The translations under genes were made by a program, and so were the position numbers. From positions 1-17,362 of the forward strand of contig JADGIZ010000271.1 in assembly GCA_027604665.1 (NCBI GenBank): DNA of 17,362 nucleotides. Direction: 5' to 3'. Every line of letters begins with the position of its first letter. The first letter of the stretch is position 1. Source of the stretch: Polyrhizophydium stewartii. Taxonomy: Eukaryota; Chytridiomycota; Chytridiomycetes; Rhizophydiales. The notes beneath the pieces were generated by a model, which was not told where the DNA came from, did no database searches, and worked only from the letters and a program-made list of their open reading frames with translations. Positions 1-16,891 of the stretch are shown in pieces.

Positions 1-1027
1 GCACGGTGAAGCCGATGCTCACGAGATACTCGCGGAATGTGCGCGACCATGCGCGCGGCGCCTGCTTGAGCCCATAGACAGCGTGCACGATCTTGAGCAC
101 TCGGTCCGTGCCGTCCTCATAGCCTGGAATCTGCTCGGCATAGACCGTCTCCTTGAGCTTCGCCTGCAGGAACGCAGTCGTCACGTCGCACTGATGGATG
201 TGCATCTTGCGCGCCCGCGCAATCTCTAGCAGCGCCAGGATCGACGCCTTCTTGGCCACAGGCGAGAACGTCTCGCCCGTGTTGGCATCGCCCTTGGTCT
301 GCACGAATCCGCGGATGACGGCGCGCGACTTGCGCCGCCCGTCCCTCTTGACGACGTCGACCCAGCGCCACGTCATCAGCTGGTTGCCCGCGGCCTCGGC
401 TCGCGGCACCATCACAAACGTGCCGATGTCGCGGTGCGCCGCAAACTCGGCGTCTCGCGACTCCTTCCACTCGGCAGCGTCCTGTGCCGCCATGCCCCTG
501 TAGTCGACACGCACACGAGGACGCAGGCCTGGTCGATTATCCGCTCGCGGCACTGTCTCATCTCCCCCTGCCGCGACGGGTACCGCAGGCACGGCAGCAG
601 GCGCTTCGGCGGCTGGCTCGTCCTCGAAAGCGTCAAAGTACTCGTCATCATCGTCGTCCGACAACCCTTCGCCGGGCGGAACACCCAGATCCTGGTTCTG
701 CGGGGCAGGCTGCGCATCTACCTCGACAGGAACGTCAACCACAACCGTCGGCGGCACATCGTGCACCGCGTCAGGCAGCGCGCCCCATTCGGCCATATCA
801 GGCGCGCTCCCCCTGTCTGCGAACGACAGCTCCTCGCGGAAGATTGCCTCGCGCGTCGTGACAAACGTCTTGGCCGCCGGGTCGTAAAACACCCAGCCCG
901 AGTCGCCCTTGGCGTAGCCCGCAAAGATCATCGGCACCGCAATGGGGTCAAGCTTGTTGCGCTGCTCCTTGCGCAGCCGCACCCACGCCAGGCAGCCGAA
1001 TACTTTGAAGTGCGAGACGTCGTTGTA
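1..1027 (-). pseudogene. copia integrase C-terminus plus reverse transcriptase N-terminal half (partial)
   Basis: One uninterrupted minus-strand frame of about 340 codons runs from near 1027 off the window edge. It opens with DVSHFKVFGCLAWVRL, the usual end of copia integrase, followed by a FAGY segment and a REAIF segment. Next comes a long acidic linker (a run of five Asp followed by EYFDAFEDE). The RT core then starts (W-K-E-S-R-D-A-E, TWRWVDVVKRDGR, SRAVIRGF, DVTTAFLQAKLKE) and ends at the edge after YGLKQAPRAW. DVTTAFL holds the first catalytic Asp; the YVDD box would lie outside. There are no stops, but the 5' side is truncated by the inverted duplication, so the polyprotein as a whole is broken. 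Confidence 0.87.
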
Positions 1028-1505
1028 TCCCGAGCGTGTCACCGAGATGGCGTCCAGGGCATCGGCGAGGTCGCCAAAGAACGCTGAGGCGGTTGACTGG
1101 ACCATTGACTCAGGCGCAACGAGCCATTTTACGCCGTTCAGGGATGCGTTTTCAACGTACGAGACGTTGCTGCCGCACGAACAGGTCCGGGTCATGGTCG
1201 CGAATGGCCAGATGCTGCGCGCGGTCGGTCGCGGGATGGTTGTGCTGCGCACGTGGTCAAGCAACAAGCGCCATGAGATCCGGCTGCCCGGCGTTCTGCA
1301 TGTGCCGGGCATGTCAAACAGCCTGATCTTGGTCGCCAAGCTGGCAAGCCAGATTGACCTTGTGGATGGTGTGTTCCGTCTCAAGGCACATGTTGGCGGC
1401 GTGATTGCAATCAGCCAGCGCGGCGGCGGGTGGACGCCGCGCGCGCTGCCGCAAGAGCGAGCGGCGGCGGCAAGCACACATGAGCGATACATGCATTTTT
1501 CGCCG
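1019..1505 (+). pseudogene. inverted fragment of the copia gag-end/protease region
   Basis: The plus strand encodes a fragment starting near YPERVTE and containing VDWTIDSGATSHF, VRVMVANGQMLR, LPGVLHVPGMSNSL and RYMHFSP, then a TGA at 1506. It matches the minus-strand gag-protease product of 1608-2137 with only scattered substitutions, for example NAEAVDW for SAEAVDW and SSNKRHE for SGNERHE. It has no start of its own and points against the rest of the element. It keeps the protease frame open where the other copy has a 40-bp insertion, so it shows the state before that insertion. Confidence 0.9.
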
Positions 1506-1507
1506 TG

Positions 1508-2574
1508 ACATCTTGCTGGCCACACAGGTGTCACAATTGTTGTCGTTGTGTGGGCAGAAGTCGAGGCCAACCACAGCCTTATGCTTGGCCATCGCCTCAA
1601 GCATGCGCGGCGAAAAATGCATGTACCGTTCGTGTGTGCTCGCCGCCGCCGCTTGCTCTTGCGGCAGCGCGCGCAGCGTCCACCCGCCGCCGCGCTGGCT
1701 GATTGCAATCACGCCGCCAACATGTGCCTTGAGACGGAACACACCATCCACAAGGTCAATCTGGCTTGCCAGCTTGGCGACCAAGATCAGGCTGTTTGAC
1801 ATGCCCGGCACATGCAGAACGCCGGGCAGCCGGATCTCATGGCGCTCGTTGCCTGACCACGTGCGCAGCACAACCATCCCGCGACCGACCGCGCGCAGCA
1901 TCTGGCCGTTCGCGACCATGACCCTGACCTGTTCGTCTGGTTGGTTGGGGTGGCAAGCTGCGTTCATTGTGTTCGTCTGGTGGCAACGTCTCGTACGTCG
2001 AAAAGGCATCCCTGAACGGCGTAAAGTGGCTTGTCGCACCTGAGTCAATGGTCCAGTCAACTGCCTCAGCACTCTTTGGCGACCTTGCTGACGCTCTGGA
2101 CGCCTTCTCAGTGACACGCTCGGGATACGACAACGACTCGCCTTCATTCGAAGTGGCTGGTGCCGCGCGCACGTACTCGTCTGCAACGAGGAACTTGCCG
2201 GCCACCGTGACCAGGCGCGCGACATAAACCTCGACCGGTTCGGCCAGGTCCGCGTATGGTGTCGTGAAGGTGCGCATCGCCACGTTGCGCTGCTGCTGCT
2301 CCGACGTCTTGCACAGCGTCTGCAGCGCGTCAAAGAGCTCCTTGACTGTCTTGCATGTCTCAATCGGGACCTGCTTGAGTAGCTCCTCGCCGATACTGTT
2401 GGTGATCGCCAGTCGCAGCCGAGCTGCTGCAACGGCCTTGCCTTGCGGAACAGTCCCAGTCGTGTGCAGGTTGGGAACCTCGAGAATCTCCGCAGCCAGC
2501 TCCACGGCTGTGCTGAACTGCGTCCAGTTGCTGCTGCCGAGCAGCGTGGGCAGAGTAGGCCCACTGGCGCTCAT
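1508..2574 (-). pseudogene. copia Gag-protease-GAG_pre-integrase, frameshifted
   Basis: The ATG at 2574 starts a Gag-like helical protein (MSASGPTLPTLLGSSNWTQF onward) of about 150 residues. It leads straight into the aspartic protease motif VDWTIDSGATSHF. The CCHC zinc knuckle normally found between Gag and protease is not visible, so Gag appears shortened. At 1941-1980 a 40-bp insertion shifts the frame; downstream protease (VRVMVANGQ, LPGVLHVPGMSNSL) and the pre-integrase module (RYMHFSPRMLEAMAKHK ... CDTCVASK, about 1508-1640) are in another frame. Reading past 1508 enters the inverted copy and becomes meaningless. This is a dead or defective element, unless the shift is bypassed by ribosomal frameshifting, for which I see no signal. 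Confidence 0.85.
1930..1981. repeat. 40-bp insertion bounded by a 12-bp direct repeat
   Basis: TGTTCGTCTGGT occurs at 1930-1941 and again at 1970-1981, with 28 bp between the copies. The inverted arm (1019-1505) has a single version at the corresponding place, so the extra 40 bp was gained in this copy. Forty is not a multiple of three, so the insertion breaks the protease frame. It could be a small insertion with a target-site duplication or a repair-associated duplication. Confidence 0.75.
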
Positions 2575-2639: not shown

Positions 2640-5600
2640 TCAGTCGGCGACTTCGTCATCTGCAGCGATGTCGTCCTCGTCCGAGAGCCCAAGATCCATC
2701 TCGGGCTCCGCGTCAGGTTCGGCGGCGTCCTGCATGCCCGCGAGGGCATCATTCTGCTCGTCGGCGTCTGCCTCTGCCACAACAGCAAAGGCGCCTGTCT
2801 CGTCCTCGTCGACGCCCTCTGCGGCGGACGCCTCGTAAGCTTTGGGACGGCGGTCCAGGATGCGGCCCAGAACCTCGTTCGTGAGCACGCTTTCCGGATG
2901 CGGGATCTTATCCGTCGTGTCGCCCAACCCTGTGTTGGCGTGCTCGGCCTCCTCGGAAGCCAGAATCATGGCCAGCTCCGCGAGCGACGTTTCGCGGTTC
3001 GACTTGTAGTACCTGCGGCTGCCTTTGAAGTGGCCTGCGCACACGGACAGTCAGCGCAGCGCAGTTTGCGACGACTCGTGTGCGCAGCACGTGCCTTTGT
3101 GAATCACAAGCTTCTCGAGCTTGCGCTTGGACTGAGCACAGTCGAGGATCCGGCGCTCGACAGAGTTGGTGGTGATGAGACGATACACAATCACGGGCCG
3201 GTGTTGGCCGATGCGGTGAACACGGTCCTGCGCCTGCAGATCCACCTGCGGGTTCCAGTCCGAGTCAAAGATGATGACGGTGTCTGCGGCCGTCAGGTTG
3301 ATTCCGAGGCCGCCTGCGCGCGTGCTGAGCAGGAAGAGCCTCGTGTTGGGGTTGGTGTTGAATTCGTGCAGCTGCGGCCAAGTGTCAGCGACGCGAGAGG
3401 TGGCAGCTTCGCGCATCAACACAAACGGGCTCGCACTCACTTGCTGGCAGCGGTCCTCGATCTTGACCGAGCCGTCTATGCGGCAGAACGACCAGCCCTT
3501 GACGAGCGCGCACCAGTCCGCAATGATGTCAAGCATGCGCGTCATCTGAGAAAACACAAGCACCTTGTGGCCTCGCTCAAACAGCGCCGGCAGGAGGCGA
3601 TCGAGAACGAGCATCTTGCCTGACCATGCAACAATCTCGGGAAGCTTAACGGCCGGTGCGTCGCTTCCTTGCGCAGGCTCTGTTTCAACGGTGTTGCCTT
3701 GGCCGTCGCCACCCTCGCCCTCAATGTCAAACAGATACGGGTGGTTGCAGATCTTGCGCAGCTGCATCATGGCCACCTTCAATCCCTGGCTCTGCAACGC
3801 CCGGGCTGTTGATGCCGTGCGCGTGTCAGCATCGCTGTCACGCACTGCCGATTCCGATGTAACGCACCAATAAACTTGCTTGCCGACTCTTCCACGCGCA
3901 CACTCTCTCGCAAAGGCTTGGCAGACTGATGGGCTAGGCTCTCAAAGTACTTTTTCTCGCTTAGCTCCGTATAGTCGACTCGCTCCTTTGAACGCGTGCG
4001 TCTGACTCCGAAACTATCAGCCGCCGAGTCGCTGTCTGGCCTCGCGTCGCCTGGCCCGATCGTTACGCCGGCATCCAAAGAAAACGCAAACTCGTCAGCT
4101 GGCAACAAGCAACCCAAGGCGAGCAAGTATTGGCCTATGCGCCTACCACCCTCGGGCTCGGCGTTCTCTTTCTGCGGATCCCCGACATCGATTTTGTGCT
4201 GGCGGCGCAGATTCTCGGCGACAGTCTCCTTGAGCACGCCGCGCAGCGTGGCATCGTAGAGCTCCTTTTGCTTTGGAAGAAGCGGTGCATAGAGCAAGTA
4301 CTCGCGTTTCTTTGGAAGATCGACTGCCGCCTCGGACTTGACGCGGCGCAGAAGAAAGGGCTTGAGAACCTGATGCAGGCTGTTGACCATCCAAGTCCTG
4401 GACTCTTGGCCAAGCAGCCTCGTTGCATCCGAGCTGTCATTTGCTGCCGAGAGCTCGTTGGCGAACTGGAACCTGAAAGAGCGACCAGGTGTCAGCGACC
4501 TCGCCTCTGGTGCGCCGGCCGCGCGAGAGCCGACCATTCTTCAAACGCCGTCAGATCGTCAAAGATCTCGGGCATCAGAAAGTTGAGTAGTGACCACAAC
4601 TCGGACAGGTTGTTCTGGTTGACATTTGCCAGGTCAGCCTGCGATTCATGCTCGGCTTCGACTGCTGTCGTGCTTCCACGCAGAGGGACCGCACCTGAAG
4701 CGGCGTGCCTGTCAGCAGAAGACGGTTGGCAGACTTGTACGACTTGAGCTCGCGGATCAGCTTGCAATCCAGGTTCTTGATGCGATGCCCTTCGTCAATG
4801 ATGATGTACCGCCAGAGTACGTTCTGTACGCAGCGTGTGAGAAATAAGCGACGGAGGCGAGCTTTGGCGGCTGAGCCCACCTGCAAGTACTTGCGATCGC
4901 GCATGCAGATTTCATAGCTGGTTACAATGACGGGGTAGTTCTTCTTGGCAAAGTTCATCTCGTTCTTGCGGAGATACTCGCGCTTCTTTTGGTCGCCATA
5001 GTAGAGTAGCACCGGCACCGACGGCGTGAAGCGCTCGACCTCGGAGACCCAGTTCGCAAGTGTCGACATGGGCGCCACGACGAGAAACGGACCTTTGGTT
5101 CCCATCTCCCGCAAATGCGCCAGAAACGCGATGGTCTGAAGCGTCTTGCCCAAGCCCATCTCGTCAGCTAAGATGCCGTTGAGCCCATTGTCGTATAGGC
5201 TAATCAGCCACTCCATGCCGACAATCTGGTAGTCTCGCATCACGCATCCCGTCACGAGCGACGGCTGGCGGCTTGCGGTTCTGGCAGCAGGGGCCGCGAT
5301 GGGACCAGCAGCATCATCGCCGCCCTCGGCGCCGCGACCAAACTCGCTTCCTCGAACACGCTTTGATTGCTTGCCAGAAATGTCAGTGCACATACAAGCC
5401 CACAGCTGGCGGCAACTCGGCGCACCTTGGCACTCGCCGAGGATTTGCGTCGCTTCTTGCGGCCCGACTCTGGAGCTTGCAGGCTGCTCTGGTCCGCTGG
5501 GACGGAGCCGGCCCGGTCGCCCTTGGCGGCATCTGCCGAGGCAGACGTCCTCGCAGAGCGACGCCGGGTGACGCGGGATGCCTCGGTCTCGGGATCTGGG

Positions 5601-6270
5601 TCGACAATCGCCGGTCGGACTCCGCGGTCGGCCGATCTGGCTTCGCCTGCTCCGCCGTCGGAGCCGCCCTGATCGCTGTCGTCTGCTGCTGCGACAGCTG
5701 CATCGACCGTACCCGCGGCTGCAGAAGCCGCGGGCGCTCGCGGTGAGTTTGTCTGGATCGACTTTTGGCGTGCCTCGAGCTTCTCAGCGAGCCACTTGGA
5801 GTAGATGCCGGCCCGCTCGACCAGGAACTTGAGCCTCTTCTGGCGCTGCTCTCGCTGCACCCTGTCGAACTCGCTCTCTTGCTGTCCGCCGTGCATCCCA
5901 CCATACGCATGCCACGAGCGTGCGGGCCAGGGATCAGCATATGCGCCTTTAGGAGCTGCGCGCAAGTGCGCGCAAGCCCTAAAGCCTCGCTCACCAGCGC
6001 CCACAGCCGGCGGTGGTACTCGGCGTCGCTCTCGTTGTCCAGACGCTTCTCTCCGGACAACGTGCCGACAACGGGCTCTGGTCGCTGCTCGTCCGCCGCC
6101 GCAAGAGCAGGGGCGAGGGCGGCTGCGTCGCCGTCAGTGCTAGGCGTGGGCTCAGCGCCCTGCGCTTCGGGGTGTGGCGAGTCGCCTCGAGCCGCACTGC
6201 GGGGCTGCGTGTCTTCGGGTGCCGTGTCCGCAGGTGCGTTGGCGGCTCGGACTTCGCTGTCCTCGAGCAT
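2640..6270 (-). CDS. HELLS: SNF2-family ATP-dependent chromatin remodeller, HELLS/DDM1/Irc5 type
   Basis: Nine exons (minus): 6270-5995, 5881-5426, 5369-4881, 4823-4695, 4614-4535, 4472-3868, 3805-3441, 3371-3095, 3034-2640; about 1023 aa, all joins in frame. The N-terminus is low-complexity and charged, then a basic helical stretch ([12 protein letters not shown], residues about 95-110). The ATPase lobe has [19 protein letters not shown] (about 313-320), DEGH (about 417-420) and [19 protein letters not shown]. Lobe 2 has [29 protein letters not shown] and QDRVHRIGQ (about 845-856). [14 protein letters not shown] and the acidic tail are typical of the Lsh/HELLS/DDM1 group, nucleosome-sliding enzymes linked to DNA methylation and repeat silencing. 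A low-complexity insert of about 100 residues lies between the lobes. The TTG in front of the ATG was not used. CHD1 and ISWI are less likely because no chromodomain or HAND/SANT/SLIDE region is seen. Confidence 0.9.
3035..3094 (-). other. GC-AG intron in the HELLS-type gene
   Basis: On the minus strand the exon ends ...CACAAAG and the intron begins GCACGTGCTG. It has a CTGACT branch site and ends GTGTGCGCAG, 60 nt in all. Splicing here gives [14 protein letters not shown], which fits the family. The nearby GT (GTGCTG) is in the wrong phase to join this acceptor. Without splicing, an in-frame TGA falls inside the intron and the protein would lose its last 131 residues. Confidence 0.78.
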
Positions 6271-6387: not shown

Positions 6388-9300
6388 ATGCAGTGCGGCG
6401 ACGTGAGGGCGTATCCCGTTCTGCTGACGGCCAACCCGCCTCGGCCAGCGACATCGTCAATGCTCAGGCGCAGCTGGTCAAGAGCCTCCGGTCCGGCGGC
6501 CCGCTGAGCCAGCAGACGGACGCCTTATACCGCAGGTAGGAGCGAGTGCGTCCGCTCGTAACCGGCCTCCGTCTGCGCTCTCGCCTGCGCTTTGTACGCT
6601 GCTCCTGCTGACGCCCGCAGCGGCGCCTGGCCAGGCTCTGCAAGCTGCTCGAGGACTTTGCCTTCGCCAGCGGCGACATCATCAAGGCCGAGGACTACAT
6701 GTGGCGATACCTGCATCTCCGAGTCATCGAGGTCTTCCGCGCCGGCATCGAAAAGCCCCCGCACGATGTGGGCCATACTTGGATCACGGATACCCGCCGG
6801 CCCGAGCGAGCTGACGGCGCTGTAGCAGGGCAACAACGACCAAGGCGATCCGCACCGCTCCAAGCGAGCAGACGGCGATTCGGCCAGAGCGCTTCAAGCC
6901 GGGTTCCGTGTCTTCCTCAACAACTCGATCGGCTTCTATCTCGAGTTCATTCGCAAGCTGCATGCGCGCGAGCCGCTCGCTGCGGTGCAGCGCGCAGTCA
7001 TGGCCGACATTGCGTCGTGCATGGAGTTCTCGGACCTGCATGGCGGTGCGTCCGATTCCCTTCGCCCGATACAGACCGCCCGCGGCCGAGCTGACTGTCC
7101 AACCGCCCGGAGCAGAAAGGGGGAGCGATCCGTGTGGCGCCTACGAGCTTTCAGAGTGCGCCAAGCTCGCTGCGGACGACGTCATGCTGACAGTGCACCG
7201 ATGCCTGGTGCGACTCGGCGATCTCGGTTGGTTGCGCGGCCCCTTGCTGTTCGCAAAGCGCACATCATGTGGGCTGACAGCTCGGCCATCCTTCCAGCTA
7301 GATACAAGGACACGCTCTCTGGCCGAACGCTGCGCGAAGCACGTTGTCTGCTGTCGAAGCGATTTTACAACATGGCCGTTCGTTTGATTCCCGACAACGG
7401 ACATCCGTTCAACCAGCTCTCTGTGATTGCCAGCAAATACGAAATGGACCTGCTGCGCGCGTTTGAGCTGTACTTTCGGAGCCTCGCTATCAGCATCCCG
7501 TACAGGATCGCGCTCGAGAACATTCACACCACGTGCGTCGAGGCTCAAACCCGTGTCAAGGCCAAGGTCGCATCGCCTGAAGTTCCGCCATTCGCAAGCG
7601 TCTTCAAGGCTCACATTGGCGCTTTGCTTTGGAAAGTTTCGAGGTCAGTTGCGCCGGGAAGAGATGTGGTTGTCGCGGGCTGTACTGCCTTGCTGACACC
7701 AGCTGATGGTCCGCAAACCTGCAGCCCAGAGGCCATCGCGGCCGAGTCGCAGAGCGTCATTTCCGGCATCGAGGCCTTTCTTTCAGACCCCGCGCTTCGC
7801 AAACGGCTGAATATCTCGCCAGACGACATCAAAAGTATTCTCGTCGTCTCGCTCGGCGCCGTCTTCCTGAGCGAATCGCCGGAAACGTTCAGCCAGCGCT
7901 CAAACAAGCACCACAGCACAGCCAGCGGCACAGGTGGAGGCAAGCACGGCAAGCGCACCGATCTTGCGCCGCATGACCCGTCCGTTGTTCTCGACTTCAC
8001 TTGGAACTTGGTCCGCGTTGTTCTCAAATACGTCTTGGCGCTCGCGCGCAGCCAGATCAGCAAGGGCGTCGTTTGGAGCGGTTCAGACTCTGGCCAAAGC
8101 TCGGATGAGCTCGACTTTTTTGAGCCTTTGCTGCCGCACGTGAAGCTCGCGCTCAAGTTCCTGTCCAATCGCGTCAAGCAAGGCATGTATCTTGGCTCGC
8201 TCACGCCAGACTACTGGCCCCTGGTCGCCAGTGTCTGTACGGTGCTTTCGGAAGCGCATGCGCGGCTCTGGAACCGGATGCCGGATGAGGTCGCGTTGCT
8301 TGCTCCGACGCTGCTGCCGGAGGATCTTGAATGGCAAGGATTCAGTGTGCTTTACCCCTCTGGCGGGCGGCCGACACCGGCAGAATGGGACGCATCGATC
8401 CCGCTTGGCGAGATGGCGCCGATCCGCATCGCGCAGATTCTCGAAATAGCCAACGAGCTATGCGCGACAATGGTAGGGCCTGCAAGTCCCCGGCGCTCGG
8501 TGGGGTGTGTGCTAATGGCTCTGCTGTCCTGCCGTCGCGACTCGTGCAGCCGCCGAGGCTGTTCTTCTCCATGTTCCAATCTGCGGACAAGCGATACCGC
8601 ATGTTCTCGACTGTGCCGCCAGAGAACCCATCGATCGCGTTCACTTCGGTGACAGCCCGCGGAGGCCTCTTGCCAGCAGGCATCTGGGGTGCACCCACGC
8701 TTGTTGCGCCGCCAGTAGGGATGCGCCGGACGAGCACAGGCATGTCGGCGCTGTCAGGCCCGCCTCTTGTGCAGGAAGCCTTTGCATTCGGTCCACTGGC
8801 AAGCATGCAACCTCCTCAGGGCATTGAGTCGCTGGCCGCCAACTCCGAAGCCCCACAGAATCAACTCGACGATGACCGCGCGGGCGCATCTGACTGCGTC
8901 GACACAATAAGCTGGCTGGGTCTCATGGACGATGATGGAGAACCTCACGCAAGACCCGCAACGACGCCAAAGACACCGCAGAGGCTCGGCGCGGGTCCAG
9001 AGCCTGAGTTCGGGAACACTGCGATCCTGGCAGATGGCTACGCCGTGGCGATGCTTCGCTCAGCCAGCAATGCGTCTGTTCGCTCAGGGCGCTCAGTTCA
9101 CTCGAATCGCTCGGTGAGCCCAATCGGGCATGCGAGAGGAGCGCCTTCTGGGTGAGCAATCGTTGATTCTCTGTGTCTTGTTACTGAATAGGCTGACCAA
9201 CTTGTGCCACCGCTGGCAGAACCGGACGAGGACCAGGCGACTCGGCCGCAGGTGCTGGCGCAACCTCTCCGTTCGACATTGGGTTTCAGCTCGTGATCCC

Positions 9301-9703
9301 CAGAACTCCCACCTCGGCTGCCAAGGCGTCGCCGACTCCGGTGACGGCGACGGCGGCGGCGGCGGCGGATATATCGGCTGCCGAGGTCGGCCGCCTGATG
9401 CTTGCAGATCAAGACGCCGCGATGGCACAGCATGCGTTTCGGCAGCCACGGCTGCTGCACCAGGCGCAGCCCCTTGCAGACCCGCAGGATCCATTTGCCG
9501 TGTCATGGTGGGACTCGCAAGAGTCGCGGCTGTTTCCGTTTCGCACACCGGCAAGACAGTCGAGCTTTGCGAGGCGGCCTGACGACCGTGTTCCAGGACT
9601 CCGCGAAGCAGCCGCTGTCTCTTCCACCAAGGGCGTCGGCTCCTCGGACCCGAGCGCTGCCAGCGAGCTCACCGACCAGCATGCGTCACATTCGAACCAA
9701 TGA
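6388..9703 (+). CDS. SMG7: EST1/SMG7-like nonsense-mediated mRNA decay factor
   Basis: Nine-exon model: 6388-6402, 6468-6535, 6635-6767, 6829-7045, 7116-7226, 7298-7643, 7725-8472, 8550-9151, 9220-9703; about 907 aa, in frame throughout. The N-terminal helices (LYRRLCKLLEDFAFA, YMWRYLHLRVIEVFR, FRVFLNNSIGFYLEFIRKL) match the 14-3-3-like part of EST1/SMG proteins. CLVRLGDLARYKDT and AVRLIPDNGHPFNQL (about 208-222) are the family's TPR-like signature, and LPEDLEWQGF (about 494-503) marks the EST1 DNA/RNA-binding region. The tail is long and low-complexity, and there is no PIN nuclease domain, which favours SMG7/Ebs1 over SMG6. Family members bind phosphorylated UPF1 and recruit decay enzymes. 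The first exon (MQCGD) is the weakest part: it rests on one ATG and a splice to 6468. The 6828 acceptor could be 6825, adding one Gln. Confidence 0.85.
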
Positions 9704-9966: not shown

Positions 9967-11657
9967 ATGCGCGACAAAGACAACAGGCTGCGGTCGTCCT
10001 GCACGGCATGTGATTGCCCCGAATACGCGCTCCGGCCTGGATCAAGCAAGTGCGATGACTGCTCTTGCTCCGTGACGCGCCACCGTGTCGTCGAGGAGTT
10101 CAGCATGCCAGGCGGCTTCGAGTCTCGTGAAACCGGTGTGTGCGCATGCATCAGGCCCTGCGGTATCTGATAGCGTCGGATCGGTCGCATCGCATCTTTG
10201 GCCTTCGTGGCCCTCGGCATGCCGCGATAAGGTCGCCTGTGTAGCGTTGTTGGGCTGTAAACACACCAGCGGCTGTCGCGGCCTGAATCCACGGCTAAGG
10301 GAGCACCTGTGTCCGCGTCTGCGCCGTGGATATCGATGCATTATCTCGCAACTGCAGCGTGCCTTGGCACCTGCGGGCCGAGAGCTGACATGCGGCCTGA
10401 TATCCGACATAGCAGGCTTGGCATCGAATTCGCGTACCGCAGCCCGCGACCAAAACAGGACTGCGATCGAAAAGACGGTCAGGTTCGCTCAGCAGTGGAA
10501 GGTGCCAGACATCAAGGAGGCGCTCGGCATCACCGACATCGAGTCGACCACAATCAATGTTTGTCAGCGCCAGCTGCTGTTGTGGCTGCCGTCCCTTCTC
10601 GTGCTTGTCTTTGGCAACTTTCTCGACCACAAGCGCAAGTCGGCATCGCTCTCGCGTGTTTATTTCAGTATGCACTTGAATCAAAGACCTGCATCGCAAT
10701 ATCGCCTCTGACGCGATACTCGAATGCAGCTACAGCAGGCGTATTTCTCACGAGCACATTTCTCGCTTATACGATCAGTAAGTCCTGGCACATGAGCAGA
10801 TACGCCAACGCGTGCTGACAGCACTGGGCTTTGGCGCTCAGGCTGGCAGAGCAAGCGACACGCAAAGCGCGTGCTTGGCGCAGCACTCGTGGCCATGAAC
10901 GGAATGCTCGCCGTCATGTACACCCTGCTGTGGCTTGACCTTCTGCCGACTCTCCCGGCATCGGAGCCGGGCCACGTCGTTTCTCCCGCAAGATTCTTGA
11001 CTTTGATGGCGTACACGCCTCCGCTGCTGCACTTGATGGGCGATCTGACTAGCCACGAGGGCAACATCCGCGCGTAAGTCCATGCAACCAAACGGCATCA
11101 GAAAGCGGCCATGGACGCTCACGCAAGGATTTCGGTTTCTGATCTCTGCGCAGATACGCAAAGCTGTCGTACCTGCAGATCATTGTGATGTTCCTGTCGT
11201 CGTTCGTTGACGCGGGCCGTTCGCAACTCGCGACCCTCGTCTGGGTTGTGTCGACATTCGCCATCATCCGCCGCGTTCTTGTGCTGCACGGATCTGCTCT
11301 CAAAAGGGCATCGCATGCGCTGCTTGACCGACGCTCGCTGGTTCTGACCAGGCTATTTTCGGTCGCCGGCATGTGCACATGTGAGTTGTGCGACGCCCCG
11401 CTTTCAGTCGCACTGGGCTGACTTGTCCCTCGGCGCGCCAACAAGACGCCCTTGCGTGGAGTGAGTTGCTTCTCGTGCTTCAGACCTGGCCGTAGCACAC
11501 CTGGCTGACCTTGGCGCTGCGAGCAGGCTTTGAGCGCGCCATGATCGTCGACCACGTTGCCTCGGAGACGCTCTACAGCATTGGCGACTCGGCGTCCGTG
11601 GCTTCTCTGACCGCCATCCTGGCCTTCAGCACCCCGCGAGAGTTGGAGGAGCGCTGA
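9967..11657 (+). CDS. divergent opsin of the fungal rhodopsin-guanylyl cyclase type, without retinal lysine or cyclase
   Basis: Supported exons: 9967 to about 10163 (end uncertain), then 10459-10667, 10730-10777, 10842-11073, 11154-11380, 11446-11460, 11527-11657; the last six join in frame. The N-terminus MRDKDNRLR is followed by a Cys module (CTACDC, CDDCSC). As I remember it, the Blastocladiella rhodopsin-cyclase starts very similarly. Eight hydrophobic helices follow: one extra (LLLWLPSLLVLVFGNFL) and seven matching bacteriorhodopsin A-G. Helix C is ARFLTLMAYTPPLL, aligning without gaps to ARYADWLFTTPLLL with Asp85 replaced by Thr. Helix E has VWVVST. Helix F has YALAW, matching Tyr185 and Trp189. 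Helix G is ETLYSIGDSASVASL, where the position four after Asp, normally the Schiff-base Lys, is Val. The protein stops at STPRELEER, just where a cyclase linker would start, and the next gene begins 145 bp on. A plasma or internal membrane protein with unknown function. Confidence 0.75.
10165..10458 (+). other. unresolved middle of the opsin gene
   Basis: Between the Cys-rich first exon (frame 1, stop at 10168-10170) and the exon beginning TAIEKTVRFAQQW (acceptor at 10458) at least one intron is needed. A second short exon is possible, because branch-like CTGAT/CTGAC sites occur near 10165, 10385 and 10396 and possible acceptors near 10173, 10269 and 10414. I could not choose between them by frame or homology, since this cytoplasmic linker is poorly conserved. 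Confidence 0.5.
11446..11460 (+). other. 15-nt microexon of the opsin gene
   Basis: The stretch 11381-11526 looks like two introns around a microexon. The first (11381-11445, 65 nt) starts GTGAGT, has a GGGCTGACTT branch site and ends ACAAG. The second (11461-11526, 66 nt) starts GTGAGT, has GGCTGACC and ends GAGCAG. The 15 nt between them keep frame and turn the helix F sequence into CTYALAWSF. Its Tyr and Trp fall on the retinal-pocket positions Tyr185 and Trp189 of bacteriorhodopsin. Skipping it also keeps frame but loses both residues. Confidence 0.75.
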
Positions 11658-14800: not shown

Positions 14801-16891
14801 CGCTTGGCGGACGAGAATCTGGGGACAGGGGTACAGAATGCGCCGAATCCAGCCAAGCAGACCCTGCGCGCCGAGTCCTCCAACCTGTCGTTCGAGCTCT
14901 CCACAGGTAGCCATGAGGGCACGTCGTGGACAAGCGACAAGAGCTGGGGACGGCTCTCGATGCACGACGCGTCGTCGGTGCAGACGCGTGAGCCGGGACT
15001 CGGAATGATCCGCGACGACAGTGCAGAAGCGGCTGCAATCGAGCGCGCGCCGTTTGGATCAGGAGACCGCTTAAAGTCACAAGGAGCGATCTTCGGGAGT
15101 GTGGTCGCTTCGAGCGGAGACACGGACCTGTTTTTCGAGCCAATGGAGGGCTGGATCGAAGGGAAGACAGGTGCGGCGCTGTATCGCTCCGGGAAACCCG
15201 CTGCGCCTCCGCCAGGCCCAGGCACGACGGTAGAACGTTCTGGTGCAAAGTCCGAGTCGCCTGCTGTCGTGGCGCTCCACGGCGTGGATCTCTCGCAGTC
15301 ATTTGTGCAAATCGGCTCGTTGCCAACAGATCAAGCTGTCAGACACGCAACAACAAAGGTCGCTGCACGCCCGCCTTCTGCGGGGAAAACCGAGCGAGGC
15401 TCGCTGCCAGTGGCGCAAGAGCCGAGCCAAGGCGAAGTGCTCGGTCTCGACGAGCAAGCGGGTCATCTCAGACAGCTCGAGGGCCTCTTTCTCGTTGCTA
15501 CCGGTGCGCCGATGTGGCTACCGCAGACCCAGGTAAGCTTTGAGCGCCAGGACAAAAGCGCGATCTACCACAGATGCTGAATGACCTGCTGCTGGCAGGA
15601 ATCGGGCTATATGACCGAGGACATGGTCCGCGAGCAGGAGGCTGTGCTGGAGAGTCTGGGCACAGGCCCCGAAGCTGCGAAGCTCCGGGCACGCATGCAG
15701 TGCGCGCAGCTCATTTCTGGTCTGTGCATCTGGCCGTGGAAAGACCCAGCATTTTGCGAGGCTGACGCCTGCCCTCTCTACGCAGACATGGAGGCGTTCA
15801 AGGCAGCGAATCCGCATGCGATGCTGGAGGATTTTGTGAGGTGGCACTCGCCCCGAGACTGGATCGAGACAGCTGACGGAAAGGGCCGCCTGAGTGACCG
15901 CATGACGGATACTGGCAACCTCTGGCGCGAGTGCTGGGAGGTATGCACTGTCGTGCTGCCGTGCCTTGGCGGCTTCGTGGCTGATTCGTCGCCGCGAACC
16001 GTCAGGGATCGCGGCGCATGCCAGCCAGCATGCAGAAACCTCTGTTTGACTACGAAAAGGAGGCTGCCAAGGTTGTGCACTATCTGGAAAGCCTTGCGCC
16101 ACAGCAGATCTTGTCAGAGTGGGTTTCTCGAGTGTTGGCCAGAAGCACCTGATTGCCCTGAGTTGCTGACGGTGAGAGTGGCACAGACTCCTGCCGACGT
16201 TCTTCTTGATTGCGTACGACGTGCTGTCGACGCACGCTGCAGCACAGAGCGTGCTGGCTGTTGCGCAAGGCGTTGAGCGGTTCGGCAGGCAGCTTGTTGC
16301 GTTTTGGTGGAGTGGGGCGGCGTGAGTTGTGGTGTGCGCGACAGGGAACCAAGATGGCGGCTGACTGGCAACCGTGGGACGAGCAGGGAGAACAGCTTCG
16401 CGGCGCTGAGCGGTTTGCTCGACGAGATCCGCCAGATAGAGCGGGATATCGCGCTGAGCACCTCGCTTCTGCGCAAGGTGGGCATCCCGCGAGATCTGCA
16501 CAGTACTGATGGCCGATGGCTGACGATGAGAGCGCAGCTGCCCGGGCAGACGGAGCTCGTCAGCCGCCTTGTGCGGAACCAGAACACGGCGGTGCGAGAC
16601 AGCGAGCGCGACGGCGTGTTTGCGCTCTTCAGCGACGGTGAGTGGCGTCGCCTGCTTGGCCTCATGCGGTGCACGGCGGCTACTTGGGGCTGACACCGAC
16701 ACGCAGATGACGGCTCGTTTCCTTTCCCGCACGCACGCGAGTACATCCTGCAGGCGCTGCGGGTGCCGCGGCACGGGTCGCAGCAGCACCCGCAGCACCA
16801 GCCGCGTGCGATGCACGCGCGCATGTATGCCCTGCTGATGGACGGCGAGTTCCGCCTTGTGGAGTCGATGTCGACGGACGTCCGCCAATGA
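11803..16891 (+). CDS. RAB3GAP1: Rab3 GTPase-activating protein catalytic subunit (RAB3GAP1 homologue)
   Basis: Supported exons: 11803-11901, 12132-13185, 13245-15532, 15599-15719, 15786-15940, 16006 to about 16118, then to 16321 (join uncertain), 16387-16637, 16707-16891; about 1470 aa against about 980 in human. EVFEIVDYT joins AASPLERLVAAIEAAL across a 230-nt first intron, matching the family's N-terminus. Also seen are LFASAFAIALANTACSLPVF, LLHQKLAMFNCC, DLFFEPMEGW, YMTEDMVREQEAVLESLG, RARMQCAQLISDMEAFKAAN and the GAP segment EDFVRWHSPRDW (about residue 1203-1214), which as I recall includes the catalytic Arg of the human protein. The end is FPFPHAREYIL ... EFRLVESMSTD. Extra length comes mostly from Ser/Ala-rich inserts (about 12650-12800 and 14380-15120). 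The family works as a heterodimer with RAB3GAP2, as a GAP for Rab3 and an exchange factor for Rab18 at ER and lipid droplets; no partner gene is in the window. Confidence 0.9.
16119..16186 (+). other. unresolved intron of the Rab3GAP gene
   Basis: The coding frame before (HYLESLAPQQILSE) and after (FFLIAYDVLSTHAAAQ, from 16201) is the same, but a TGA lies between them at 16150-16152. An intron of 3n length is therefore needed. A branch site GCTGAC (16165-16170) and acceptor CACAG (16186) look good, but no GT donor has the right phase for that acceptor. GT at 16119 would fit the poorer acceptor at 16178, and a GC donor at 16145 would fit 16186 but make a 41-42 nt intron. Confidence 0.5.

Follow-up and report, generated by a model that had tools for sequence, protein, structure and literature searches.

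Enzyme-rhodopsins are usually viewed as one polypeptide chain, whose retinal passes the effect of light to the attached enzyme, and with NeoR some chytrids are known to build them as heterodimers. Among the closest described systems are the fungal rhodopsin guanylyl cyclases (RGCs, or CyclOp) of Blastocladiella, Catenaria and chytrids, in which a Cys-rich cytoplasmic N-terminus, an extra helix (TM0) and seven further helices with a helix-C Arg and a helix-G Asp are followed by a coiled-coil linker and a C-terminal cyclase. A survey of chytrids places RGCs in four orders, with none in Batrachochytrium dendrobatidis, and describes a rhodopsin and a cyclase that are split and lie 547 nt apart in Homolaphlyctis polyrhiza; its main text names neither Entophlyctis nor Polyrhizophydium (PMC9616733). 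At its Schiff base NeoR (RGC3), the heterodimer partner in Rhizoclosmatium, carries three carboxylates (PMC8815786), and a cyclase domain is part of the protein (PMC7655827).

Opsins of type 1 that lack the Schiff-base lysine have also been described, and are known as opsin-related proteins (ORPs). They occur in haloarchaea and in two fungal groups, of Ascomycota and Basidiomycota, and reflect at least nine losses of the lysine, in an account whose text contains neither the word guanylyl nor the word cyclase (PMC4915679). One lysine-less enzyme-rhodopsin, AsRhoPDE, belongs to the Rh-PDE branch and has Asn at the lysine position (PMC8774190). Here we describe a protein of the chytrid Polyrhizophydium stewartii, P0001, which has Val at this position and, unlike the ORPs of Ascomycota and Basidiomycota, the Cys-rich domain and TM0 of an RGC. 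Unlike the RGCs, whose N-terminus, TM0, seven helices, helix-C Arg and helix-G Asp it shares, it lacks the lysine, the acidic counterion, the coiled coil and the cyclase, and its pocket and TM7 dimer face are changed. It likewise has no counterpart of the C-terminal phosphodiesterase of Rh-PDE. Lysine-less opsins, AsRhoPDE included, are thus already known, and one of the RGC lineage appears to be without an earlier report among the literature matches listed.

The gene occupies positions 9967–11657 on the forward strand of the window, by which we mean the whole stretch of DNA that was analysed (17,362 nucleotides). Spliced translation of its seven exons gives exactly the 348 residues of P0001, which NCBI lists as the 'hypothetical protein' HK105_204572, and its six introns, of 62–307 nt, are all of the GT-AG type; the first-pass annotation had given the same outer coordinates and missed a 15-nt microexon between them. 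Exon 1 (9967–10135) encodes residues 1–56, the Cys-rich N-terminal domain common to RGCs (CxxCxC...CxxCxC....H), which is 55–62% identical to three Blastocladiomycota RGC N-termini. From the translation and an AlphaFold2 model, exon 2 (10443–10667) covers a low-confidence linker, TM0 (residues 89–117), where the Trp equivalent to Rh-PDE Trp63 is retained, and the start of TM1; exon 3 (10730–10777) the middle of TM1 (helix A); exon 4 (10842–11073) the end of TM1 with TM2 and TM3 (helices B and C); and exon 5 (11154–11380) TM4, TM5 and most of TM6. The microexon, exon 6 (11446–11460), lies within TM6, is required for identity with P0001 and has GTGAGT donors on both flanking introns, and exon 7 (11527–11657) completes TM6 and adds TM7 and the stop codon.

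The AlphaFold2 model of P0001 (pLDDT 86.2, and 89–95 across residues 1–40) has eight long helices, one at residues 89–117 and seven between 124 and 339, in agreement with the eight-helix protein claimed earlier; the seven-helix bundle of a type 1 rhodopsin is present, and residues 343–348 form a low-confidence tail. A control fold using the two lysine-less rows only reached a pLDDT of 39.7 and was uninformative, so that homology gains no independent evidence from the model with pLDDT 86.2. P0002, the orthologue in Entophlyctis helioformis, which is 47% identical to P0001, begins in the same way (MRDKD), and the start at 9967 was retained. Another ATG in the opsin's reading frame lies 267 nt upstream of this annotated start, at 9700; it forms an ATGA overlap with an open frame that stops at 9703 and probably represents the end of the EST1-type gene.

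RGCs for comparison were gathered with the Catenaria RGC cyclase domain as query, in a form one residue off PDB 6sir; 120 of 350 matches were listed, 26 without a rhodopsin part were removed and the remaining 94 RGC rows were aligned, giving with Rh-PDE, P0001 and P0002 the 97 rows used for the lysine position. Within a set of 122 sequences, P0001 matches the Nowakowskiella RGC P0021 with 81 bits and P0002 matches P0005 with 118 bits, while the N-terminal domain of P0001 alone matches P0011 (E 4.6e-18) and its TM region alone P0043 (E 7.2e-21). The N-terminus of P0001 reads MRDKDNRLRSSCTACDCPEY...KCDDCSCSVTRH, its Blastocladiella counterpart MKDKDNNLRGACSSCNCPEY...LCDDCKCSVTKH, and a regular expression finds the Cys domain in 24 of the 94 RGC rows, many of which have short or incomplete N-termini. 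A Pfam search with P0001 gave a chance-level match only (PspC, E 1.5). P0002 matched Bac_rhodopsin with E 2.2e-4, under the family's cut-off in Pfam, and in the PDB, at E values up to 10, only two entries, both for the rhodopsin phosphodiesterase of a choanoflagellate (E 1.5e-7 and 2.6e-7). The scores against the RGC set and the likeness of the N-terminus make descent of both proteins from the RGC lineage well supported at the level of sequence, and the RGC-type N-terminus and TM0 argue for this descent rather than one from NOP-1/CarO-type fungal opsins. The original reading of a Cys-rich N-terminus and helices of rhodopsin-cyclase type is thereby upheld in both parts.

At the helix-G lysine position, Lys is present in 93 of the 97 rows, Val in P0001 and P0002, a gap in P0016 and Asn in P0033, which among the matches listed leaves Lys in 92/94 RGC rows. 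The two RGC exceptions look like gene-model faults: the P0016 model is missing the segment that holds the lysine, and P0033, a genomic model from Catenaria anguillulae, is separated by 0.016 changes per site from the Lys-bearing P0003. Besides these two faulty models, the lysine is lost only in the lysine-less pair among the 97 aligned rows, again among the matches listed. The codon of Val330 (BR Lys216) is GTG at 11598–11600, four residues after Asp326, and that of Thr201, at the helix-C counterion position (BR Asp85), is ACT at 11000–11002, where Glu stands in 95% of 84 RGC rows; both residues are as the first-pass annotation had reported them, and Thr, like Val, recurs in P0002. The suggestion that a sequencing error was unlikely to lie behind the Val has gained weight from the orthologue, because P0002 agrees with P0001 in the Val, the Thr and the C-terminal end, so that this is neither a sequencing error nor fresh decay. 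A sequencing error or single mutation was rejected as an explanation, since the two proteins also have further pocket changes in common.

In BR numbering, both proteins have Met in place of Gly122, Trp in place of Ser141, Thr in place of Met145 and Ser in place of Ala215, in addition to the Thr at Asp85 and the Val at Lys216. The Trp182 position is Met or Leu in the pair and Trp86 is replaced by Leu in P0001 only; Arg82, Asp212, Trp189 and Leu93 are retained in both. Mean identity of the lysine-less proteins to RGCs is 17% in TM4 and 11% in TM5, so the register can be assigned with less certainty for residues 122–145 than for TM3, TM6 and TM7. Pocket and other conserved positions, compared by a Fisher test, gave p = 0.011 for P0001 and p = 0.14 for P0002 at a 90% threshold, and p = 0.24 and p = 0.45 at an 80% threshold, and as the result is significant for P0001 at one of the two thresholds only, the test is a weak one. 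At BR 85, 89 and 212, where NeoR has the carboxylates Glu, Asp and Glu, P0001 has Thr, Tyr and Asp and P0002 Thr, Ser and Asp; with the three NeoR carboxylates absent, it is by its residues not a NeoR-type subunit.

P0001 ends in ...STPRELEER, followed by a stop at 11655–11657, at the place where RGCs run on into the coiled coil, and therefore has neither a coiled-coil linker nor a C-terminal cyclase. The earlier claim of an end at ELEER without a cyclase holds on translation and across the contig, on which no PF00211 cyclase match was found, the 23 cyclase-domain matches genome-wide (best candidates scored) all lying on other contigs. Without a cyclase, light-driven cGMP synthesis by P0001 itself is not expected from its sequence. 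A fused or adjoining cyclase was likewise rejected, the contig being without a cyclase match and the window frames carrying SNF2, EST1 and Rab3GAP domains. These are an SNF2-type ATPase domain at 4578–5783 (-), an EST1 DNA/RNA-binding domain at 7012–8439 (+) and a Rab3GAP catalytic domain at 15581–16273 (+), downstream of the opsin. A fragment of a copia-type retroelement frame, with RVT_2 and retroviral SH3-like domains, lies at 5–1708 (-), and no photosensory domain was found in neighbouring frames among the window frames scanned.

The pattern of conservation within the lysine-less pair is uneven. Its TM-region identity is 101/230 (44%), as against 143/233 (61%) when the RGC of P. stewartii is compared with that of E. 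helioformis, and for comparison we used 694 RGC pairs with 42–52% TM1–7 identity, drawn from 74 RGCs. TM0 is 55% identical in the lysine-less pair and 21% on average in the RGC pairs (2/617 usable pairs reach 55%), TM7 76% and 60% (23/694 pairs reach 76%), and TM3, the counterion helix, 50% and 65% (671/694 pairs at or above), counts that are not p-values because the matched pairs share rows and are not independent. TM7, with 19/25 residues identical, is the best conserved helix of the pair, and the N-terminal domain has 31/48; setting TM7 against the remaining TM helices of these two proteins gave p = 0.005, but TM7 is high in RGC pairs too and we rely on the matched-pair comparison instead. 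The N-terminal domain is 43–62% identical between the lysine-less proteins and seven chosen RGC N-termini and 40–60% in eight chosen RGC pairs, with TM identities for the same chosen sets of 15–23% and 37–44%, respectively; across all comparable rows the N-domain means are 42% for lysine-less to RGC and 40% for RGC to RGC. Together, these figures suggest constraint on the N-terminus, TM0 and TM7, and not on the counterion helix. Among approximately 8000 candidates scored per search, P0001 and P0002 were the only lysine-less orthologues found, and as RGCs were missed too this puts little weight on rarity.

In phylogenetic trees, P0001 and P0002 form a clade with 100/100 support on a long stem (2.31–2.65 changes per site). 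With Rh-PDE as outgroup the pair branches off outside the fungal RGCs sampled, at a join flagged as possible long-branch attraction, and without Rh-PDE it adjoins Quaeritorhiza. The AU test rejected a grouping with the clade that holds the RGCs of P. stewartii and E. helioformis (p = 0.026), so the lysine-less gene did not arise recently as a copy of its presumed partner, while grouping with NeoR-like rows (p = 0.158) or with Blastocladiomycota rows (p = 0.39) was not rejected; the free tree without outgroup did not place the pair with the NeoR-like clade. In trees with fungal RGCs and the NeoR group, as had been proposed earlier, the place of the pair within the RGC lineage varies, and an early duplication would be a plausible origin. 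Two further observations emerge from these trees. E. helioformis is assigned to Chytridiales by NCBI, yet its RGC P0027 groups closely with that of P. stewartii, P0019 (Rhizophydiales), in both trees, and its placement or the history of the gene may deserve a look. P0076 (EukProt entry Colp12) is an RGC with a non-fungal-looking sample name and a long branch whose place differs between trees, which may reflect contamination or else the presence of RGCs beyond the fungi.

RGCs with rhodopsin and cyclase domains are listed by NCBI in both species, P0019 (HK105_200410, with a gene model that begins inside TM0) in P. stewartii and P0027 in E. helioformis, on contigs that, judging by their lengths, are not those of the lysine-less genes. 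A paralogue with both domains is thus on record for P. stewartii, where a genome search for a full-length one had been advised, but it was not found in the assembly searched (G000), where P0019 and P0027 as queries gave only weaker cyclase-domain matches, 28–42% identical, among the matches listed. No opsin-like frame was seen beside the cyclases on contigs C41 and C200 of this assembly when the frames were read by eye, and a PF01036 profile search of it found nothing, as was also the case in 14 control genomes. A carotenoid oxygenase of the RPE65 family was not found in G000 and part of a squalene/phytoene synthase was. With 12.9 Mb in 690 contigs G000 is probably incomplete, so that the RGC missing there is no argument against the species having one. 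The cyclase genes on C41 (L016) and C200 (L017) look paralogous, with similar charged, helix-prone upstream frames and similar stretches behind them (by eye). The idea that the partner RGCs are without the Cys domain was dropped: P0027 is annotated without it, but the P0019 model starts within TM0, and exons may be missing from N-termini as annotated. The N-terminus of P0032, an RGC of Dinochytrium kinnereticum, similarly passes from MLDRD directly to GKLSWKEKM, and its Cys-domain exon may be skipped (cf. P0025 and P0090); caution is advisable with RGC N-termini as annotated.

The changed face of TM7 can be read against Rh-PDE, whose dimer face has hydrogen bonds among Asn305, Glu309 and Asn113 and in which mutations of Met301 and Val304 lower the amount of dimer (PMC7644710). 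In the RGCs, position 301 is Leu in 77/93 rows, 304 is Val in 73/93, 305 is Asn in 90/92 and 309 is Glu or Asp in 92/92, and P0019 and P0027 retain the Asn and Glu of positions 305 and 309; Asn at the Asn113 position is found in 8/83 RGC rows only. P0001 and P0002 both have Ala, Ala, Phe and Arg, which in P0001 are Ala335, Ala338, Phe339 and Arg343 (11613–11639, +). An interface acid replaced by Arg, alongside acid-bearing RGCs in the same species, suggests heterotypic pairing of the pseudo-opsin with an RGC via TM7, on an interface transferred from Rh-PDE and with Arg343 in the low-confidence tail.

Our preferred reading, offered tentatively and at somewhat less than an even chance, is that P0001 is a pseudo-opsin without retinal that would pair with, and restrain, the RGC of the same cell. 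Such a regulatory subunit would associate with the RGC in the membrane; the change from Leu, Val, Asn and Glu to Ala, Ala, Phe and Arg would disfavour self-pairing, and the Arg of the pseudo-opsin would meet the Glu of an RGC protomer in a heterotypic contact. Class III cyclases require two catalytic domains, so that pairing with a protein that has no cyclase would keep RGC protomers inactive, and the retained N-terminal domain would add restraint in trans. On balance the pseudo-opsin would act as a brake and set either the gain or the dark noise in cGMP phototransduction. Restraint by the N-terminal domain would fit CaRGC, which is more active without residues 1–43 (PMC8575461), and BeCyclOp, which has higher dark activity without residues 1–90 (PMC4569695). 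The N-terminus is no simple inhibitor, however, as CaRGC is inactive without residues 1–139 (PMC8575461) and BeCyclOp without 1–90 also makes less cGMP in light (PMC4569695). The complete scheme, with heterodimerisation through a charge-swapped TM7 face and a Cys-rich domain that restrains in trans and sets the dark activity and gain of zoospore vision, is unlikely to hold in all its parts. The N-terminal domain being retained and the cyclase missing, a restraining subunit nevertheless seems to us the most economical proposal. The first-pass annotation had also pictured a partner or regulatory subunit, or else a repurposed sensor; an RGC-lineage opsin without lysine or cyclase and an RGC listed in the same species both stand, and a dimerisation or regulatory role would agree with where constraint lies and with the altered face of TM7.

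A repurposed membrane sensor or scaffold without retinal and independent of the RGC, in which the Cys domain, TM0 and TM7 serve a new homotypic or other partner, much as in the fungal and haloarchaeal ORPs, is possible if doubtful. The changed TM7 face would fit a new homodimer or another partner equally, the stem branch of 2.31–2.65 changes per site is long, and there is precedent in the nine or more lysine losses of type 1 opsins, two fungal groups included (PMC4915679), but an N-terminal domain at RGC-level identity and an RGC listed in both species suggest a continued common pathway. A decaying duplicate or pseudogene without function would account for a TM identity (101/230) below that of the same species' RGCs (143/233) and is very unlikely given an intact seven-exon frame, 47% identity to an orthologue in another genus and conservation that is highest among the helices in TM7 (19/25), the one that lost the lysine, with 31/48 in the N-terminal domain. 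That P0001 is one half of a split RGC, with a cyclase from a separate gene, is a reading with a chytrid parallel in the RGC-type opsin without a fused cyclase of Homolaphlyctis polyrhiza, compared here by its description only (Galindo et al. 2022, PMC9616733); it becomes highly improbable with a contig that has no cyclase match, a Rab3GAP catalytic domain downstream at 15581–16273, a fused RGC listed for P. stewartii and the lysine that a light-driven split enzyme would require. Light sensing through non-covalent retinal or another chromophore, for which the retention of Arg82, Asp212, Trp189 and Leu93 in both proteins could speak, is extremely improbable: the lysine and counterion are gone, Trp182 is lost in both and Trp86 in P0001, and the RPE65-family carotenoid oxygenase was not found in the seemingly incomplete G000. 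Gly122 to Met and Ser141 to Trp would moreover bring large side chains to the positions of the retinal ring in bacteriorhodopsin, with the less certain register of TM4 and TM5.

If P0001 is indeed a partner subunit of an RGC, NeoR, the heterodimer partner in Rhizoclosmatium, would be a parallel. A relative that two genera have conserved without lysine and enzyme, but with the N-terminal domain, TM0 and an altered dimer helix, would set apart from light sensing what an opsin does besides, namely pairing, restraint and targeting, and would offer a direct handle on the roles of the poorly understood RGC N-terminus and TM0. The pseudo-opsin could also serve as a natural damper in RGC-based cGMP optogenetics.
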